This document shows positions 26,572 to 37,681 of a DNA stretch of 64,000 nucleotides, in pieces (the stretch's first letter is position 1; each line of letters starts with the position of its first letter). Under the pieces are notes generated by a model that was given only the letters and a program-made list of their open reading frames with translations, ran no database searches and was not told the DNA's origin. The position numbers were made by a program, and so were the translations under genes. This stretch comes from Nakamurella alba (lineage in GTDB: Bacteria; Actinomycetota; Actinomycetes; Mycobacteriales; Nakamurellaceae). Location: NCBI RefSeq assembly GCF_009707545.1, contig NZ_WLYK01000005.1, positions 248,001-312,000 on the forward strand. Reading direction: 5' to 3'.

Positions 26572-27531
26572 TCAGTCGGGCTGCCGGGACCGAAGTTCTC
26601 GCTTGCGGTCCAGCAGTTCGGCGTCGGCGCGGGTCAGCAGGTCGGTGATCAGCTCACCGGGCCGGGCCTGCGCGATGCCGGCCGTCCACTCCGCAGGGTG
26701 TGCGCGCGCCAGGGTGTCCAGTCGCGCACGGGCCTCGTCCAGGTCCAGCCCGGACATCAGCAGCACGAACTCGTCGCCGCCGTACCGACCGACGACGGCC
26801 TGCCGGCCGAGGGTGCTGGTCCACAGCTCGGAGAGCTCGCGCAGCAGGGCATCCCCGGCGAGGTGACCGTCCTCGTCGTTGACCGCCTTGAAGTTGTCCA
26901 GGTCGATGATCGCAACGCAGACCGGGCGCGCCTGACGTCCGATCTCCCGCTCGGCCATCTGCAGCCACGTCGCCCGGCTGACCGCGCCGGTCAGCGCATC
27001 CAGCGTGCTGCGCCGGCGCAGCCGCCGGGTCAGCCGGTTCAGCGTCGCCGCCACCGCCGTCGACGCCAGTGCCACCGACAGCAGGTGCACGGCCTCCGGC
27101 CGGGCGCTGGACAGCAGCGCACCGCCCGCGTACGCCAGGACCGCCAGGACCGTCTGCAGCACCACGCTGCGCCGGGTCAGGAAGTAGCCCGCGTACATCG
27201 CGGCGATGATCACCGCCGGGCCGAGCCCGACCACGCCGGCGGTGGTGATCGACGCGGCCGCGAGCAGACCGACCAGCAACGAGAACAGCGCCAACAGGGA
27301 CTGCATCAACCACGGCGGGAACCGGCGGCCGGTGGTCCAGAGCAGGATCCCCAGCACAACGGCGCCGCACCCGAGTGCGGTGAACAGCGGATATCGCGCG
27401 CCCGGCCGGTCGACCGAGATCACGAAGAACAGGCAGAGCGCACCACCGGCGGCGAACATCAGTGCCAGCACCCGGGCACGTTCCTCGCGCAGGTCGTACT
27501 GCCACGACAGCTCCAGCTGACGGGTCGGCAC
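26572..27531 (-). CDS. membrane GGDEF diguanylate cyclase
   Basis: 319 residues. Six or so hydrophobic helices occupy residues about 20-165 (VLALMFAAGGALCLFFVISV, MQSLLALFSLLVGLLAAA, AVIIAAMYAGYFLT), followed by a GGDEF domain with LDNFKAVNDEDGHLAGDALL and the intact YGGDEF signature near residue 249. It should make cyclic-di-GMP at the membrane. No RxxD inhibitory site is evident. GTG 27531 is preferred to GTG 27537 because AGGAGG then sits 5 bases upstream. It is divergent from the CYTH-CHAD gene. Confidence 0.88.
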   Translation of the reverse strand: MPTRQLELSWQYDLREERARVLALMFAAGGALCLFFVISVDRPGARYPLFTALGCGAVVLGILLWTTGRRFPPWLMQSLLALFSLLVGLLAAASITTAGVVGLGPAVIIAAMYAGYFLTRRSVVLQTVLAVLAYAGGALLSSARPEAVHLLSVALASTAVAATLNRLTRRLRRRSTLDALTGAVSRATWLQMAEREIGRQARPVCVAIIDLDNFKAVNDEDGHLAGDALLRELSELWTSTLGRQAVVGRYGGDEFVLLMSGLDLDEARARLDTLARAHPAEWTAGIAQARPGELITDLLTRADAELLDRKRELRSRQPD

Positions 27532-27647
27532 GGGCACCTCCTCGGCGGTCGCGGACGACGCCTAACGCGGCGGGGTTCGCGGGGGCTCGCCCCCGGCGGG
27601 GAGCGGCGGGCCGCCGGCCCGGACCCCACCCTCCGGACCTGCGACGG

Positions 27648-29337: not shown

Positions 29338-29486
29338 CCCCGTTCGGCCACGACCGATCGGTTTGCTGGTCGGTCCTGGGCGCTGTGGTGGTGCTGGGTC
29401 GGTCGGTCCTGGTCGCTCGGTCGGTCCTGGGTCAGTCGGTCGGTCTTGTCGCGCGGTCGGGGCGGTCCCGGTCCGTCGGTCAGCCG

Positions 29487-29531
29487 ATCCGTGCCGTCCC
29501 ACCGCGGATCCCGCGGGAGAACGGCGCAGAT
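29487..29531. repeat. 45-nt structured repeat, copy A
   Basis: Outer arms ATCCGTGCCGT (29487-29497) and ACGGCGCAGAT (29521-29531) pair over 10 of 11 positions; inner arms CCGCGG (29502-29507) and CCGCGG (29511-29516) pair perfectly around ATC. About 42 bases of flank after the hairpin are shared with copy B. Confidence 0.85.
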
Positions 29532-29637
29532 TCGAAAGGCCACCCGGATACAGCAGTCGGGCCCGCGCCGGCCCGCCGATCCCGGTCGATCGGTCCTGGT
29601 CGCTTGGTCGGGGCGGTCCCGTTCGTCCGGTTCGCCG

Positions 29638-29682
29638 ATCCGTGCCGTTGGACCGCGGATTCCGCGGGAGAACGGCGCGGAT
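29638..29682. repeat. 45-nt structured repeat, copy B
   Basis: The best-formed copy. The 11-bp outer stem (29638-29648 with 29672-29682) has one G-U pair and no mismatch; the 6-bp inner stem is perfect around ATT. It starts 151 bases after copy A. Confidence 0.85.
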
Positions 29683-29788
29683 TCGAAGGACCACCCGCGT
29701 GCAGCCGTCGGGCCCGCACCGGCCGGTCGGTCCTGGTCGGCCGATCCCGGTCGGTCGATCCCGGCCGATCCCCGACGTTTGTCCACCG

Positions 29789-29833
29789 ATCTGTGCCGCC
29801 CCACCGCGATTCCCACGGGAGAACGGCGCGGAT
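29789..29833. repeat. 45-nt structured repeat, copy C
   Basis: Outer stem 29789-29799 with 29823-29833: eight Watson-Crick pairs, two G-U pairs and one terminal mismatch. The inner stem is partly decayed (four of six pairs). It starts exactly 151 bases after copy B. The 3' flank CGATCGTCG is shared with copy D. Confidence 0.8.
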
Positions 29834-29961
29834 CGATCGTCGATAGGCGTACTGCGTCTGCACCACGCAACGGCCGGGCCGCCGCGGTGCGGACGCGCCG
29901 GAGTACCGCTGATCGGCACGACCGGGACCGGTCGGCGTTCGGTCCGAGGTCGGCCCGGCCG

Positions 29962-30006
29962 ATCGGTGCCGTTGTCCCGCGGATCCCACGGGCGTACGGC
30001 GCGGAT
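29962..30006. repeat. 45-nt structured repeat, copy D
   Basis: Outer stem 29962-29972 with 29996-30006, one mismatch and one G-U; inner stem five of six pairs. It starts 173 bases after copy C and ends 28 bases from the stop of the GAF-EAL gene. Confidence 0.8.
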
Positions 30007-30033: not shown

Positions 30034-31317
30034 TCAGCGCACGGCCCTCCTCCGCGCCGACGTGATGTCCGCCCGCGGGTGCGTCCGCTGACCCGGGATC
30101 GCCGGCGGTGATCCGAGCTGCTGGTCGATCCGGCAGGCCGGCTGCGGTCGCGACCAGAGGAATCCCTGGCCGGTGGCGCAGCCGGCCGCATTCGCCTGCT
30201 CGACCTGCTCCGGTGATTCCACCCCCTCGATGCAGGTGTCCAGGTCCAGGTCGTGCGCCAGCGAGAGCAGCGCCCGCAGCAGGGCGTCACCGGTCCGGCT
30301 GCCCAACGCGGTCGTCACCGACCGGTCGATCTTGATCCCGTCGACCGGCATCCTCATCAGATGGGCGACCGAGGAGAACCCGGTCCCGAAGTCGTCGAGG
30401 ACGATGCGGAACCCGAGGTCGCGCAGCGCGTGCAGCTGCACCGTGGTGATCGGGCCGGTGGACAGCATCGCGGTCTCGGTGACCTCGAGATCCACTGCGG
30501 TGGACGGTATCCCGGCACTCGCCACACGGCCGGCGATGCGCTCGACGCAGTCCGCCTGTTCGAAGTGCCGGGCCGACAGGTTGACGTGCAGGCGGAGCCG
30601 CGGATCCCGGCGGAACCACGGCGCGAAGTGGCGGGCCGCGTGCCCGATGACGGCGAGGTCGAGATCGACCACCATGTCCGAGGTCTCAGCCAACGGCAGG
30701 AACGCCGAGGGTGAGAGCAGGCCCAGCTGGGGGTGCTCCCAACGGGCGAGCGCCTCGAGGCCGACGGTCCGGCCGGAGACCAGTCCGACGACGGGCTGGA
30801 AGTGCGCGGTGATCCGGCCGGTGTCGATCGCCTCACCCAGCGCCAGGGCGTTGGCGACGGTCAGCCGCAGGTCCTCCCGCTCCAGCCGGCGCAGTTCGAG
30901 TTGCTCCTGGACGATCCCGCCGGCAGCGGCGAGGTCCTGCAACTGGCGGGCGGAGAACCCGCGGCGTTCCGGGTGGAGCAGGCAGAGCGTGCCGATCGGC
31001 AGACCTTCCCGGCCCACGAGCGGCAGCCCGACGTAGGTGAGCATGCGCCGGTCGCCGACAGCGACGTCGATCTCGAGGACCTGCGGCCGGGCGTCGTCGA
31101 TCACGTCCCGGCACACGGTGGCCAGGTTGCCGACCTGGCGGGGATGGACGCCGGCGCCGGCGATCGTGTGCTGGACGTTGTCGTCGACGACGTTGACCAG
31201 GGCGATCGGGAAGCCGAAGTACTTCGCGAGCAGTTCGACCGACTGCTGGAGGGCCGAGGTGCGGTCCGGTGGGACCAGGTAGTGCAGTGCCGATCGGTGC
31301 CGGCGGGAGCTGGGCAT
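30034..31317 (-). CDS. GAF-EAL cyclic-di-GMP phosphodiesterase-like protein
   Basis: 427 residues. A GAF domain (about 20-155) with YFGFPIALVNVVDDNVQHTIAGAG and VGLPLVGREGLPIGTLCLL precedes an EAL domain (about 170-410). The EAL catalytic signatures look intact: LEALARWEHP, VNLSARHF, VTETAML, LDDFGTGFSS, IKIDRSV and CIEGVES, so it may hydrolyse cyclic-di-GMP. The GAF domain would sense a small ligand or light/redox state. GGGGAA lies before the ATG at 31317. It counterbalances the GGDEF proteins at 26572 and 48637. Confidence 0.9.
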   Translation of the reverse strand: MPSSRRHRSALHYLVPPDRTSALQQSVELLAKYFGFPIALVNVVDDNVQHTIAGAGVHPRQVGNLATVCRDVIDDARPQVLEIDVAVGDRRMLTYVGLPLVGREGLPIGTLCLLHPERRGFSARQLQDLAAAGGIVQEQLELRRLEREDLRLTVANALALGEAIDTGRITAHFQPVVGLVSGRTVGLEALARWEHPQLGLLSPSAFLPLAETSDMVVDLDLAVIGHAARHFAPWFRRDPRLRLHVNLSARHFEQADCVERIAGRVASAGIPSTAVDLEVTETAMLSTGPITTVQLHALRDLGFRIVLDDFGTGFSSVAHLMRMPVDGIKIDRSVTTALGSRTGDALLRALLSLAHDLDLDTCIEGVESPEQVEQANAAGCATGQGFLWSRPQPACRIDQQLGSPPAIPGQRTHPRADITSARRRAVR

Positions 31318-31439
31318 GACACTTCCCCTTTGCTGACGAACGGGAAGAAGGGACGGGGGTTCCGGCGAGCACTGGCGTGCCCTGGTGAGCACTGGTGAGC
31401 GCGGTCGCCGGGGAGACCGGTGCCGCCCGCGGGCGGGCA

Positions 31440-31457
31440 CCGTGGGATCACCCACGG
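31440..31457 (-). terminator. hairpin downstream of the chaplin-like gene
   Basis: CCGTGGG-ATCA-CCCACGG, a perfect 7-bp stem, just after the stop at 31480 in the minus direction, followed by a second GC hairpin (GTGCC...GGCAC). Together they form a plausible terminator; no T tract is seen. Confidence 0.65.
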
Positions 31458-31479
31458 GCCCGCCGCTGCGGACGGGACG

Positions 31480-34400
31480 TCAGCGCTGCACGCGCCGCCG
31501 GCGGCCGAGGGCGACCACGAAGCCACCCGCGACGAGGAACAGCAGCGCCAGCGAGACCAGCCCGCCGACATCCACACCGGTCCAGGCCAGACCCGCGCTG
31601 CCCGGCACCGTGGCGTCCGGGGCAGGGACCGGGGCCGCCGCAAACGGCGGAGCCTGGGGTACGACCGGGGCGGCCGGGCCGGCAGGAGCAGGCGCACCCG
31701 GCTGGGCCGGGGTTGCGGGATCGGCTGGGGTGCCCGGCTCGGCGGGAGTGCCCGGCTGGGCCGGAGTGCCCGGGTCGGTCGGCTCACCCGGGGTGCCCGG
31801 GTCGGTCGGCTCACCCGGGGTGCCCGGGTCGGTCGGCTCGCCCGGGGTGCCCGGGTCGGTGGGATCGACCGGGGTGCCCGGGTCGGTGGGATCGACCGGG
31901 GTCACCGGCTCACCCTGACCGCTGCCCGTGCCCTGCACGCAGCTCACGCCGCTGGATCCGAGGATCCCGAGACCGAGACCGCAGATGCGGATCCGGATCG
32001 GGAAGCCCCCGAAGATCCCCGTGCCGGGGTCGTCCGTTCCGTCGGTGGTGCCGGAGCAGTCGATGACGCTGTCGCCCAGCAGACCCAGACCCACGCCGCA
32101 GACGTCGACCGGGATGTCGATGACCGGGACGGTGGGATCGGTCGGCACGGTGGGATCTGTGGGCACCGTCGGATCGGTCGGATCCGTGCCGGGATCGGTC
32201 GGATCCGTGGGATCGGTCGGTGTGGTGCCCGGGTCCGTCGCGACACCGCAATCGGTCGCCGCATCACCGAGCAGACCAGCAGAGATCCCGCAGACGTCCA
32301 CCGGGATGTTGATCACCGGGCTGTCACCCAACGGCCCGACCGGATCGGTCGGATCAACGGGGTCGGTCCCAGTGCCGGTGCCCGGGTCGGTCGCGACACC
32401 ACAATCGGTCGCCGCATCACCCAGCAGACCAGCAGAAACCCCGCAAACATCGATCGGGATGTTGATCACCGGGCTGTCACCCAGCGGCCCGACCGGATCG
32501 GTCGGATCAACGGGGTCGGTCCCAGTGCCGGTGCCCGGATCGGTCGCGACACCACAATCGGTCGCCGCATCACCGAGCACACCAGCGGAAATGCCACAGA
32601 CGTCCACCGGAACATTCACCAGCGGGGCCTCCCCCACCGGCGAGGACGGATCAACGGGGTCGGTCCCAGTGCCGGTGCCCGGATCGGTCGCGACACCACA
32701 ATCGGTCGCCGCATCACCGAGCACACCAGCGGAAATGCCACAGACGTCCACCGGAACATTCACCAGCGGGGCCTCCCCCACCGGCGAAGCCGGATCAGTC
32801 GGATCGGTACCGGTCCCGGTGCCCGGGTCAGTCGCGGCACCACAGTCGGTGGCGGCGTCACCAAGGATGCCCGCGGAGATTCCGCAGACATTCACCGGCG
32901 CATTCACCAGCGGGGTCTCCCCCACCGGCGAAGCCGGATCAGTCGGATCGGTACCGGTCCCGGTGCCCGGGTCAGTCGCGACACCACAATCGGTCGCCGC
33001 ATCCCCGAGCAGCCCAGCGGAAATGCCACAGACGTTCACCGGCGCATTCACCAGCGGGGTCTCCCCCACCGGCGAAGCCGGATCAGTCGGATCGGTCCCG
33101 GTGCCCGGGTCGGTCGCGACACCACAATCAGTCGCGGCATCACCGAGCACACCAGCGGAAATGCCACACACATCCACCGGGATATTGATCACCGGGGTGT
33201 CACCCATCGGCGAGGACGGATCAGTCGGATCGGTCCCGGGGCCCGGGTCGGTCGCGGCACCACAATCAGTCGCCGCATCACCGAGCACACCAGCGGAAAT
33301 GCCACACACATCCACCGGGATATTGATCACCGGGGTGTCACCCACCGGCGAGGACGGATCAGTCGGATCGGTACCGGTGCCCGGGTCGGTCGCGGCACCA
33401 CAATCAGTCGCCGCATCACCGAGGATGCCCGCAGTCACGCCGCACACATCCACCGGCGCAGTCACCAGCGGAGTCTCCCCCACCGGCGAGGACGGATCAG
33501 TCGGATCGGTACCGGCGCCGGGATCGGTCGCGGCACCACAATCGGTCGCCGCATCACCGAGCAGACCCGCGGAGATCCCGCAGACGTCCACCGGCGCATT
33601 CACCAGCGGCACCTCGCTGCCGTCCGCATCCGGCACCGTGGTGCCGGCGCCCGAGTCGATGGAGCCGCCGCAATCGGTCGACGCATCACCGAGCAGACCC
33701 GCGGAAATCCCGCAAACGTTCACCGGCGCATTCACCAGCGGGGACTCCCCCACCGCCGAATCGGATCCAGCGCCGGTCCCGGTACCCGGGTCCGTCGCGG
33801 CACCACAATCAGTCGACGCATCACCGAGCAGACCCGCGGAAATCCCGCAGACGTCCACCGGCGCATTCACCAGCGGAGCATCGGCGCCGTCGGTGGTCCC
33901 GGAGGTACCGGGCTCCGAAGGGGCTCCACAATTCGCACTGCCATCACCCAGCACACCCGCGGAGATCCCGCAGATGGTCACCGGGATGGTGGCGACACTG
34001 CCCTGGGTCGGCGTGGTGACCGGCCCACAGTTCGCGTCCGCATCACCCAGCACACCCGCGCCGATGCCGCACACGGTCACCGGGACGGAGACCAAGGGCC
34101 GATCCGAGTCTTCGCTGTCTGCCGGTGCCCCGGACGTCGGGGCGCAGTTCGCAGTGGACTCGCCGATCCCGATCCCGCACACGGTGATCGGGGCCGAGAC
34201 CAGGGCGTCGGAATCACCAGCGGTCGGCGCACAATTCGAGGCACTGTCACCCAGCAACCCCACGCCGATCCCGCACACATCGATCGGGGCCGAGACCAGG
34301 CCGCCATCGGTGAGATCGTCGGTCAGGTCATCGGTGCCGTTCAGGTCCGGGAGCCCGATCGGGGACCCGTCGCTGTTGTCGGACCCGGCACCGACCGTGA

Positions 34401-35622
34401 CGGCGACATCAGCGCCGTTCTGATCGACATCCGCATCCGCCGTCGCAACGCCATCGGCCGGCAGGTTGGCATCCGCATCGGCAGCGATCTGACCGTCGTC
34501 GACCGTGGCATCGGCGGACACGTCCGCATCGTCGGACACGGTCGCGTCCGCGCCGGCCTGAACGCCGTTGTCGGCGACATCGGCATTCGTGGTCGCTGCG
34601 GTGTCGTCACCCACCCGGAGATCGACGTCAGCCGTCGTCTGCTCGTCGGTGACATCCACGTCCGCGGTGGCCTCGACGTCGTCGGACACGGTGGCATCGG
34701 CGTCTGCGGAGACCCCTTCCTCCGAGGCGTTCGCATCGGCGGAAGCGGTGACCTCGTCCGAGACATTCGCATCCGCATCCGCGGACACACCCTGATCGGA
34801 GACATCGGCATCGACCGACGCCGACGTGTCATCACCGACCTGCGCATCCACATCCGCCGACACACCCTCATCCGAGGCATTCACATCAGCGGACGCGGTC
34901 ACCTCGTCCGAGACATTCGCATCCGCACCGGCGGACACACCCTGATCGGAGACATCGGCATCGACCGACGCCGACGCGTCATCACCGACCTGCGCATCCA
35001 CATCCGCCGACACACCCTCATCCGAGGCATTCACATCAGCGGACGCAGTCACCTCATCCGAGACATTCGCATCCACATCCGCGGACACACCCTGATCGGA
35101 GACATCGGCATCGACCGACGCCGACGCGTCATCACCGACCTGCGCATCCACATCCGCCGACACACCCTCATCCGAGGCATTCACATCAGCGGACGCAGTC
35201 ACCTCGTCCGAGACATTCGCATCCGCACCGGCGGACACACCCTGATCCGACGCATTCGCATCGGCGGAGGCATTCACCTCGTCCGACACGTGTGCATCGG
35301 CGTCGGCGGACACACCCTCGTCCGAGGCGTTCACATCGGCGGACACCACGGTGTCGTCACCGACCCCGAGGTCCACACCCAGGTGCAGACCGTCTCCGGA
35401 GCCATCGGCGTCGGTGCCGACGGTGATCGGCGCCTTCCCCGATCCGGAACCCTGCCCGAGCACGTCGACCGACGTGCCACCGAGCTTGACCGACACCAGT
35501 GCGGTGCCGTTGCCACCGGGGTCTGTCCCGGTGGAATCCGCGGCGGCGATGCCTACCCCGAGGGCGAACATCCCGCCGCTGAGAACTGCGATCTGCAGCC
35601 CTCTTCGCAGCAAGTTGTGCAT
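31480..35622 (-). CDS. giant chaplin-like cysteine-repeat wall protein, sortase-anchored
   Basis: 1380 residues. After a signal peptide (LQIAVLSGGMFALGVGIAAA) the mature chain begins ADSTGTDPGG. Residues about 95-400 are Asp/Ala/Ser/Val repeats of 12-13 residues, four per 50-residue super-unit (for example NASDEGVSADVD). From about 440 to 1220 come 18 modules of roughly 36 residues, each with a core like P-V-D-V-C-G-I-S-A-G-L-L-G-D-A-A-T-D-C (two Cys 14 apart), separated by Gly/Thr/Pro/Asp linkers. A PTDPGTP-rich wall linker, LAWTG near 1341-1345, a hydrophobic helix and RRRRVQR complete a class E sortase signal. The Cys modules resemble Streptomyces chaplin (DUF320) cores shortened between the cysteines. 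A GGGAGAAG Shine-Dalgarno precedes the ATG. It is probably a rigid, amyloid-prone surface coat. Confidence 0.85.
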   Translation of the reverse strand: MHNLLRRGLQIAVLSGGMFALGVGIAAADSTGTDPGGNGTALVSVKLGGTSVDVLGQGSGSGKAPITVGTDADGSGDGLHLGVDLGVGDDTVVSADVNASDEGVSADADAHVSDEVNASADANASDQGVSAGADANVSDEVTASADVNASDEGVSADVDAQVGDDASASVDADVSDQGVSADVDANVSDEVTASADVNASDEGVSADVDAQVGDDASASVDADVSDQGVSAGADANVSDEVTASADVNASDEGVSADVDAQVGDDTSASVDADVSDQGVSADADANVSDEVTASADANASEEGVSADADATVSDDVEATADVDVTDEQTTADVDLRVGDDTAATTNADVADNGVQAGADATVSDDADVSADATVDDGQIAADADANLPADGVATADADVDQNGADVAVTVGAGSDNSDGSPIGLPDLNGTDDLTDDLTDGGLVSAPIDVCGIGVGLLGDSASNCAPTAGDSDALVSAPITVCGIGIGESTANCAPTSGAPADSEDSDRPLVSVPVTVCGIGAGVLGDADANCGPVTTPTQGSVATIPVTICGISAGVLGDGSANCGAPSEPGTSGTTDGADAPLVNAPVDVCGISAGLLGDASTDCGAATDPGTGTGAGSDSAVGESPLVNAPVNVCGISAGLLGDASTDCGGSIDSGAGTTVPDADGSEVPLVNAPVDVCGISAGLLGDAATDCGAATDPGAGTDPTDPSSPVGETPLVTAPVDVCGVTAGILGDAATDCGAATDPGTGTDPTDPSSPVGDTPVINIPVDVCGISAGVLGDAATDCGAATDPGPGTDPTDPSSPMGDTPVINIPVDVCGISAGVLGDAATDCGVATDPGTGTDPTDPASPVGETPLVNAPVNVCGISAGLLGDAATDCGVATDPGTGTGTDPTDPASPVGETPLVNAPVNVCGISAGILGDAATDCGAATDPGTGTGTDPTDPASPVGEAPLVNVPVDVCGISAGVLGDAATDCGVATDPGTGTGTDPVDPSSPVGEAPLVNVPVDVCGISAGVLGDAATDCGVATDPGTGTGTDPVDPTDPVGPLGDSPVINIPIDVCGVSAGLLGDAATDCGVATDPGTGTGTDPVDPTDPVGPLGDSPVINIPVDVCGISAGLLGDAATDCGVATDPGTTPTDPTDPTDPGTDPTDPTVPTDPTVPTDPTVPVIDIPVDVCGVGLGLLGDSVIDCSGTTDGTDDPGTGIFGGFPIRIRICGLGLGILGSSGVSCVQGTGSGQGEPVTPVDPTDPGTPVDPTDPGTPGEPTDPGTPGEPTDPGTPGEPTDPGTPAQPGTPAEPGTPADPATPAQPGAPAPAGPAAPVVPQAPPFAAAPVPAPDATVPGSAGLAWTGVDVGGLVSLALLFLVAGGFVVALGRRRRVQR
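34741..35260 (-). repeat. 150-bp tandem DNA repeats within the Asp-rich region
   Basis: Near-identical blocks recur with a period of exactly 150 bp (for example blocks starting at 34861, 35011 and 35161 share their first ~90 bases almost perfectly), encoding the 50-residue super-units. Codons are conserved as well as amino acids, which indicates recent unit duplication, and copy number may vary between strains. Confidence 0.88.
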
Positions 35623-35656
35623 GATCTTCTCCCGAAGATTCGAAGGAACGATGGAC

Positions 35657-35671
35657 GGGCCCGGAGGGCCC
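35657..35671 (-). other. short GC hairpin between the two giant genes
   Basis: GGGCCC-N3-GGGCCC. It lies in the 85-base gap between the PAPAAKP gene (stop 35708) and the chaplin-like gene (start 35622). It may attenuate or process a shared transcript. Confidence 0.45.
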
Positions 35672-35707
35672 TGAATCGGGCGCCATGACGGCAGCCCGGT
35701 CCTTCGT

Positions 35708-37681
35708 TCAGTCGGGGGAGAAGCTCCTGTCCTCGGCCGGGGAGGCCGGGATCGCGACGCCGGCCGGATGCACGGCGCCGATCAGGGAGAGCGAGAAGTG
35801 GTGGCCGGAGGCCGGCAGCGACACCGTCGGTGCGGCGGCCGAACCGCCGGCGGCACCGGACGGAGCGGTCGGGCACGGCACCGAAGGGGTGGCCGGCTGC
35901 GGCTGCGCGGGGGTCTGTGGGGCACGGGTACCGGTGGCGATCGAGGACTTGGCGATCGAGGCGGTGGCGGCGCTACCGGTCCGCACGACCGCCTCTCCGG
36001 TGCGGTCGCCCGTTCCCGACGGAGAGGTGGTCGACGTCGGCACCGATCCCCCGGCGACGGCGTCCGTGCTTGCCGACAGCAACGCATCAGCAGCGGCAAG
36101 CCGAGCTGACGCAGGAGCGACGATGGCGGCGCGGCCGGAATGTGAAACGGCGGAGCGGGTGGAGGTTCCGGCGGAGCTGTCGGTCGCGGTCGGCGTGGAG
36201 TGCGCGCCGGTCGCACCGGCGCCGCCCGCCGGGGTGTCGACTCCTCCACCGGCGGCCGGCGGCGTGGTCGGCACCGACGGGGAGGCACCCGGCACCGGCG
36301 GAACGACGGCCGGCAGCGCCGGGTCGACGATCGGGTCGGTCACCGGGCGGACCACGTCGACCACCGGGGTCAGCAGACCGGTCACCGGATCGAGCACCGG
36401 GGCGAGCGCATCCACCACCGGCACCAGCGGGGCGGTGACGGTCTGCACCACCGGCTCGACGGTCGCAACGACGGGATCCAGCACCGGCCGGACGGCATCG
36501 ACGACGGGCGCCACCACGGTGCCCACCTCGTCGGTGACCGGGGTGACCACCGCGACCACACCGCCGACGACGGGCTCCACGGCCTCGATCACCGGTGCCA
36601 GGCCCTCGACCACCGGGCGCACCACCCCATCGGCCAACGCGCCGGTCACCGGGCGGAGAGCCTCCGCGACCGGGGCGACGACGGTGGTGGTGACGGCGTC
36701 CGTCACCGGCCGCACGGCGGCGACCGCCGGGGCGACGACGCCCGTGCCGAGTGCGGTGGTGAGCGGCGTGATCGCGCCGGCGACCGGCTTCACGACCGAG
36801 GTCACCAGGTCGGTGACCGGCGAGTCCGCGGCCGGTTTCGCGACCGGCGCGGGCTTCGCAGCCGGAGCAGGCTTCGCGGCGGGCTTCGCAACCGGAGCCG
36901 GCTTCGCAACCGGAGCCGGCTTCGCAGCCGGAGCCGGCTTCGCGGCGGGCTTTGCAGCCGGAGCAGGCTTCGCGGCGGCAGCCGGCTTCGCAGTCGGGGC
37001 AGGCTTCGCGGCGGGCTTCGCAGCGGGAGCCGGCTTCGCAACCGGAACAGGCTTCGCAGCCGGCACAGGCTTCGCAGCCGGAGCGGGCTGGGCGGCGGGG
37101 GCGGGTGCGGGCTGCGTCGGCTTGGGCGACACCACCTGCTGCACCGTCGACGTCACGTCGTCGGTCACCGTGTCGACGGTCCCGACGACACCGCTGACGA
37201 CCGCACCGATGACGCCCTGAGCGGGTGCCGGGGCAGGGTCGGCAGGGGCCGGCTTCGGTGCGGCAGCGGGCTTCGGCGCAGGGGCCGCAGCGGGTGCCGC
37301 GGCCGGCGCTGCGGGCTTGGCCGGAACAACTTTCTCCACAACGGGTGTCGTCGCCGGAGCGGCCGGTGCTGGAGCAGGCTTCGCGGCCGCCGGGGGCTTC
37401 GCTGCGGGCGCAGGCTTCGGGGCCGGAGCGGGCTTCGGGGCCACGGCCTGCACCACGTCCCCCACCGGCTTCGTGACGGTGTCCACCACGCCGGTCACCG
37501 CTGTTCCGAGGCCGCCCAGCGGTCCGGGGTCGGTACCGGTGGGGGAGGCGGAGGCCGCGGTGGCGCCGAGAAGCCAGACGCCACCGGCGAATCCGGCGAT
37601 CGCGAGTCCGCGCAGCAGCCATCGCCGGCCGCGGAGGCCCGAGCGGGAGGAGCGGGGGTCCGGAATCGAATGCGATCCCAT
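35708..37681 (-). CDS. secreted PAPAAKP-repeat protein
   Basis: 657 residues. A basic N-terminus and signal peptide (LLRGLAIAGFAGGVWLLGATAASA) precede a mature start SPTGTDPG, which closely matches that of the downstream chaplin-like protein. Residues about 80-287 are Ala/Pro/Lys repeats (APKPAPAAKP, VAKPAPAAKPAAKP). Residues about 288-470 are Val/Pro/Ala-rich with a recurring VxPVxxAVxPV pattern. A Ser/Thr-rich segment and a short C-terminus ending EDRSFSPD follow; there is no sortase motif. It is probably an extended, basic wall-associated or released protein. GGAGGCGGAG precedes the ATG. The pair with the chaplin-like gene looks like one operon. Confidence 0.82.
   Translation of the reverse strand: MGSHSIPDPRSSRSGLRGRRWLLRGLAIAGFAGGVWLLGATAASASPTGTDPGPLGGLGTAVTGVVDTVTKPVGDVVQAVAPKPAPAPKPAPAAKPPAAAKPAPAPAAPATTPVVEKVVPAKPAAPAAAPAAAPAPKPAAAPKPAPADPAPAPAQGVIGAVVSGVVGTVDTVTDDVTSTVQQVVSPKPTQPAPAPAAQPAPAAKPVPAAKPVPVAKPAPAAKPAAKPAPTAKPAAAAKPAPAAKPAAKPAPAAKPAPVAKPAPVAKPAAKPAPAAKPAPVAKPAADSPVTDLVTSVVKPVAGAITPLTTALGTGVVAPAVAAVRPVTDAVTTTVVAPVAEALRPVTGALADGVVRPVVEGLAPVIEAVEPVVGGVVAVVTPVTDEVGTVVAPVVDAVRPVLDPVVATVEPVVQTVTAPLVPVVDALAPVLDPVTGLLTPVVDVVRPVTDPIVDPALPAVVPPVPGASPSVPTTPPAAGGGVDTPAGGAGATGAHSTPTATDSSAGTSTRSAVSHSGRAAIVAPASARLAAADALLSASTDAVAGGSVPTSTTSPSGTGDRTGEAVVRTGSAATASIAKSSIATGTRAPQTPAQPQPATPSVPCPTAPSGAAGGSAAAPTVSLPASGHHFSLSLIGAVHPAGVAIPASPAEDRSFSPD

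Follow-up and report, generated by a model that had tools for sequence, protein, structure and literature searches.

The window analysed here, a stretch of 64,000 nucleotides from Nakamurella alba (contig NZ_WLYK01000005.1, positions 248,001 to 312,000 of the forward strand), carries on its minus strand a gene for a 1380-residue protein that appears to be a chaplin-related, wall-anchored surface protein. The gene is composed of the following features, given in window coordinates.

31480 to 35622, minus strand: chaplin-type open reading frame (ORF) of 1380 residues with an ATG start, running from a signal peptide through Asp-rich repeats, 18 two-cysteine modules and a Pro/Asp/Thr/Gly spacer to LAWTG
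35539 to 35622, minus strand: signal peptide, residues 1 to 28 (MHNLLRRGLQIAVLSGGMFALGVGIAAA), boundary placed by eye
35440 to 35478, minus strand: possible remnant of a cysteine-less module, residues 49 to 61 (GTSVDVLGQGSGS)
34721 to 35344, minus strand: Asp-rich repeats with a period of 25 residues (75 nt), found by TRF with a period of 75/150 nt
31939 to 34305, minus strand: array of 18 two-cysteine modules, residues 440 to 1228, with 36 cysteines and linkers of 7 to 39 residues
31576 to 31590, minus strand: LAWTG sorting motif, residues 1345 to 1349; LAXTG is described as the class E signal in PMC5148588
31480 to 31575, minus strand: rest of the sorting signal, made up of a hydrophobic stretch and the tail RRRRVQR, followed by the stop codon

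An initial annotation of this DNA had proposed 18 two-cysteine modules on a polypeptide of 1380 residues, preceded by Asp-rich repeats and followed by LAWTG, and this architecture holds: all 36 cysteines fall in 18 consecutive pairs, one pair per module. The annotation also placed the cysteines 14 residues apart and described a P-[VI]-x-[VI]-C-G core. Both apply to 17 of the 18 modules; the exceptions are module 2, with a spacing of 11 residues, and module 18, which reads IRIRICG. A typical module is TPLVNAPVNVCGISAGLLGDAATDCG. The linkers are rich in Asp, Pro, Thr and Gly, and the grand average of hydropathy (GRAVY) is +0.96 for the modules and −0.72 for the linkers, with +0.75 for one Streptomyces-type chaplin domain. 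On an aggregation scale, the window's modules have a mean of 0.182 and chaplin domains one of 0.164. Among the 17 modules with a spacing of 14 residues, the uncorrected proportions of nonsynonymous (pN) and synonymous (pS) differences are 0.24 and 0.51, which fits a protein sequence under conservation.

A short way before the ATG stands GGGAGAAG, and the signal peptide is similar to those of relatives (for example, MNTWLRRGLLTAVLSGGIFAIGAGIASAE); such a start was found in 20 of 41 ORFs with an ad hoc pattern. The N-terminal region that follows (residues 29 to 440) is acidic, with 102 Asp and Glu residues and 3 Lys and Arg residues. The case for a cysteine-less remnant in this region is weak, because residues 37 to 75 alone score 8.9 bits but a longer context scores 2.7 to 4.8 bits, and the best of 200 shuffles reached 6.5 bits. 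The spacer between the last module and LAWTG is Pro-rich. No promoter or terminator patterns were found in positions 31000 to 36200, and an Rfam scan of the whole window returned nothing.

How are these modules related to the chaplins, the family described by Pfam ChpA-C (PF03777, DUF320)? As in chaplins, each module has two conserved cysteines (18/18), the first of which lies in the core that corresponds to P-V-x-V-C-G (17/18). They depart from chaplins in the cysteine spacing (14 in 17 modules and 11 in one, instead of 18), in lacking the three GN motifs per domain that are given as a mark of the chaplin domain in PMC13251363, and in a PF03777 score below the curated cut-off. The Streptomyces-type domains used for comparison (SGNVVQVPVHVPVNVCGNTINVVGLLNPAFGNKC) come from genus g87, for which 'Streptomyces-type' is a label inferred from scores near 100 bits. 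Their cysteines are 18 residues apart in 41 of 42 distinct stretches and 7 apart in one (47/48 with duplicates included), so the spacing of about 18 that the annotation ascribed to chaplins was accurate. Searching Pfam, NCBIfam and the PDB directly with the sequence of the window protein gave sub-threshold or compositional matches, which were set aside. P, C, G and C are invariant in module alignment A3, but this was not used as evidence because the rows of A3 had been chosen by that very pattern.

The connection runs through intermediate proteins. With A1, a profile built from the window's own modules, no Streptomyces-type genome in our phylum sample gave a match at E ≤ 0.001, and the link between window and chaplins is therefore transitive. 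At least 17 modules are matched by both profiles (A1 at E ≤ 0.001, PF03777 over its cut-off) with an overlap of at least 48 nt, a count taken from part of the A1 and PF03777 matches in the order sample; these modules are spread over eight genomes (G033, G038, G086, G123, G168, G176, G342 and G362). At the level of whole genomes, 36 in the order sample are matched by both profiles, compared with 16.6 expected when kinship is ignored. Profile-profile alignment with hhalign, in which the chaplin side consisted of 33 distinct Streptomyces-type domains, gave 98.8% for the window against relatives outside its genus. These relatives gave 97.6% against the chaplins (60 column-permuted controls, at most 9.3%; reversed, 34.9%), and relatives within the genus gave 95.0% (permuted, at most 19.1%; reversed, 6.1%). 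The window compared directly with the chaplins reached 67.8% over 17 columns (permuted, at most 40.9%; reversed, 6.9%). The intermediates L092 (GGNVVQAPVNAPVTICGNSVAVLGLAASGC) and L094 (NGAQVVAPIQVPINVCGNAVGVLGDAEAGC) have GN or CGN like chaplins together with the 14-residue cysteine spacing, and GN motifs were counted in L092, L086 and L087. We conclude from these comparisons that the common descent of the window modules and chaplin domains, traced through intermediates, is real, while the direct comparison alone is weak. The relationship suggested in the initial annotation thus stands by way of the dual-match modules and hhalign, and not by way of the direct Pfam score.

The module is not confined to the window. 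A1 matched 70 of 397 genomes and 22 of 85 genera in the order sample, 3 of 346 genomes (own included) in the phylum sample, and 8 of 17 genomes in the window's family, all of one genus and again including its own; single modules in other genomes of that genus matched with E-values down to 1.6e−13. PF03777 was found in 94 of the 397 genomes at E ≤ 0.01 and in 72 over its cut-off, and in 12 of the 346. The 72 genomes are not a count of classical chaplins, because the PF03777 matches include long open frames (about 1000 to 1270 residues) that carry cysteine-less GN-rich modules, in the family to which Lentzea belongs. Carriers identified with module alignment A2 include Nakamurella leprariae, Blastococcus, Geodermatophilus, Trujillonella, Goekera, Lentzea, Actinomadura, Microtetraspora and Sinosporangium. 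A query with the whole protein confirmed no relative among 228 stretches; five of its six chosen peptides lay beyond the module core or on its margin.

The annotation had treated the 14-residue spacing and the long tandem layout as peculiar to this protein. The comparison does not support this: both are the norm in the family that the protein's profile retrieves. Across 38 ORFs, with the window protein counted among them, 171 of 184 cysteine pairs are 14 residues apart (11 pairs have a spacing of 11, one of 15 and one of 16), and across 44 named loci the figure is 147 of 158; the two sets overlap, and the first was picked with the window's profile, which may favour this spacing. Of the 38 ORFs, 29 have an L[AP]xTG motif in their final 80 residues, and the motif was found in 17 of the 44 named loci. 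In Lentzea, 22 of 23 loci have three modules and 21 of 23 lack the motif. Many relatives have CGN, and several carry N-terminal cysteine-less modules at the place of the window's Asp-rich repeats. With 18 two-cysteine modules the window protein has the highest number seen, followed by L088 with 10, and the named loci have at most 7; these counts cover the fetched ORFs, which run from stop to stop and in some cases end at contig ends, and the pattern used undercounts slightly (17 in the window). The gap is small once cysteine-less modules are included, with 19 profile matches in the window and 16 in L084 from the same genus (domain E ≤ 0.01). For the family as we define it here (P[VI]x[VI]CG core, cysteines 14 or 11 apart), the window protein is a member.

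Some proteins found along the way differ from this pattern. L117 (6797 to 10600, plus strand), L074 and L076 are long proteins that have a similar signal peptide and many chaplin-like modules, which are GN-rich and cysteine-less; perhaps they form a further branch of the chaplin-related family. L080 (7573 to 12057, plus strand), the second copy in G006, continues through a DHP repeat into a C-terminal part that looks different and has no sorting motif, as though the reading frame had been lost within the repeat.

According to PMC5148588, LAXTG is the signal used by class E sortases, which in Streptomyces coelicolor anchor ChpA-C. The genome that contains the window has four sortase genes, one of them class E (L164; 235 bits, cut-off 160). 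L165 belongs to class F (194 bits, cut-off 166), and L166 and L167 fit class F best, both under its cut-off. The combination expected of a class E substrate, namely LAXTG, a hydrophobic stretch, a basic tail and a class E sortase in the genome, is present in the sequence, which supports the prediction that the LAWTG-bearing protein is such a substrate and agrees with the sortase anchoring put forward in the annotation. Searches of this genome with PF03777, A1 and A3 detected no second chaplin-type gene: all matches lie inside the window gene (5/5 for PF03777 at E ≤ 10, 18/18 for A1 and 17/17 for A3), and hence no short chaplin was found. No match to PF03777 in the genome exceeds the curated cut-off.

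We propose that the gene encodes a secreted protein that the class E sortase attaches to the wall, that presents 18 short-loop chaplin-type modules along a single chain and that probably contributes a hydrophobic or adhesive coat; we consider this explanation somewhat better than even. It draws on the signal peptide, the module array, LAWTG, the single class E sortase gene, chaplin homology via intermediates and the status as sole chaplin-type gene. The class E sortase would attach the chain covalently to the cell wall. Each module may adopt a small beta structure in which its two cysteines could form a disulphide, and the hydrophobic modules may associate, both inside a chain and with those of other chains, to build a beta-rich layer, giving a water-repellent or sticky surface. 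The Asp/Pro/Thr/Gly linkers and the acidic N-terminus would hold the modules spaced and hydrated. Separately secreted short chaplins, on which Streptomyces relies, would not be needed because all modules reside on one anchored chain. Of the functions that the sequence suggests, a wall-tethered hydrophobic or adhesive layer has the best support; amyloid or cross-beta assembly of the modules is plausible by analogy. Chaplin fibrils form even under reduction according to PMC3079736.

Several observations weigh against this explanation. PF03777 scores the window protein at 15.5 bits (E 0.016, 7 stretches) with a curated cut-off of 21, and two ways of counting found no GN motif in the window modules. 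The highest 7-residue aggregation score is 0.62, below the 0.84 of chaplins. AlphaFold models have low confidence, with a pLDDT of 66 for a single module (two strands) and 56 for four modules (about four short strands per module), and provide no useful match to a solved fold; Foldseek with the four-module model returned a single match with an E-value of 6, which was discarded. A match occurs in 8 of 17 genomes of the genus, own included, and no conserved neighbourhood was detected around eight loci of seven other genomes of the genus, where the window's neighbours do not recur. The whole chain is strongly acidic, with 225 Asp and Glu residues and 13 Lys and Arg residues.

The last point also favours the strongest rival, a non-amyloid stalk or adhesin in which disulphide-closed beads on a flexible acidic string extend from the wall and bind a partner or mineral, with chaplin descent and without self-assembly. 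The linkers, both in composition and in length, the peak aggregation score below that of chaplins, and the pairing of every one of the 36 cysteines within modules all agree with a stalk, but the hydrophobicity of the modules does not. Neither do the cysteine-less modules of the same pattern in relatives, which indicate that family members can do without disulphide closure. We regard the stalk as a real possibility, though a less likely one than the hydrophobic or adhesive coat. Could the modules instead be a cysteine repeat unrelated to chaplins, sharing PVxVCG by chance? The sub-threshold Pfam score, the different cysteine spacing, the lack of GN and the modest direct hhalign result could be read in this way. 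However, the same modules of intermediate proteins match both profiles, the profile-profile scores of the relatives exceed those of permuted controls, and L092 and L094 combine GN motifs with the 14-residue spacing, which makes convergence very improbable. Still less credible is the idea that the minus-strand ORF is no real gene but an artefact of repetitive GC-rich DNA. The plus strand is indeed open (31420 to 35688, 1422 residues), but pN is below pS among the modules in the minus frame, the sequence before the ATG, the signal peptide and the sorting signal all lie in that frame, and the same architecture occurs in other genera.

Among known systems, the long chaplins ChpA-C of S. coelicolor are similar in having hydrophobic two-cysteine PVxVCG modules, LAXTG and class E sortase anchoring, as presented in PMC13251363, PMC3079736 and PMC5148588. 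They carry two domains and act jointly with short chaplins (PMC3079736 and PMC5618241), and their domains have cysteines 18 apart and GN motifs, whereas the window protein has 18 modules, cysteines 14 apart, no GN and no short chaplin found beside it. The tandem short-loop proteins of Nakamurella, Blastococcus, Geodermatophilus, Trujillonella, Goekera, Lentzea, Actinomadura and others share the window's module, mostly with a spacing of 14, and differ by having at most 10 two-cysteine modules and by the CGN and N-terminal cysteine-less modules mentioned above. CwpA and CwpB of Actinoplanes missouriensis are likewise SrtE-anchored hydrophobic surface proteins outside Streptomyces, but are without chaplin domains in their authors' account (PMC13251363). 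Among the titles and abstracts listed by searches of the open-licence literature on chaplin-related topics, subscription journals being outside this scope, none describes the tandem short-loop family. Judged by its sequence, the window protein is a conserved, unusually long member of a chaplin-related family that we did not find described.

Chaplins, the coat proteins that give Streptomyces hyphae their water repellency, have been studied for their part in the aerial growth of that genus. The window's genus is not known to form aerial hyphae, and the module-bearing groups include others for which none are known. The occurrence of a related, longer, single-chain and wall-anchored form, whose module was seen in 22 of the 85 genera sampled from one order, suggests a broader role in surface attachment or hydrophobicity. 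This possibility was already raised in a 2013 FEMS review (PMC4255298), which mentions chaplin-like genes in a few other actinomycetes, including a non-sporulating Arthrobacter, and suggests an older role in attachment. More speculatively, and with considerable doubt, the chaplin module could be a general actinobacterial surface-polymer unit of which the aerial chaplins of Streptomyces are one late, long-loop form; Nakamurella and Geodermatophilaceae would then use a covalently pre-linked, wall-anchored series that stacks within the chain into a cross-beta fibre, forming a hydrophobic or adhesive coat on non-aerial cells without short chaplins. A genome with one chaplin-type gene and one class E sortase among four offers a simple test system.

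Genes for GGDEF and GAF-EAL proteins lie nearby (26572 to 27537 and 30034 to 31455, both minus strand), and the longest EAL ORF starts 24 nt past the stop of the chaplin-type gene. A link between this gene and cyclic di-GMP is possible; the GGDEF/EAL arrangement was not found at the eight loci of the genus examined, where three further matches were to window ORFs at 17 kb and 60 to 62 kb. The upstream neighbour (35708 to 37681, minus strand) encodes a secreted-looking protein of 657 residues with Ala/Pro/Val repeats (PAAKPAPA, then PVVDAVRPVLDPV-like). It has LPASG 36 residues before its end, without a clear membrane stretch or basic tail, and no Pfam match over cut-off. Positions 29368 to 30006 contain degenerate 151-nt direct repeats, partial copies of which (67 to 87% identity) occur elsewhere in the genome, for example on contigs C19, C11, C9 and C8.

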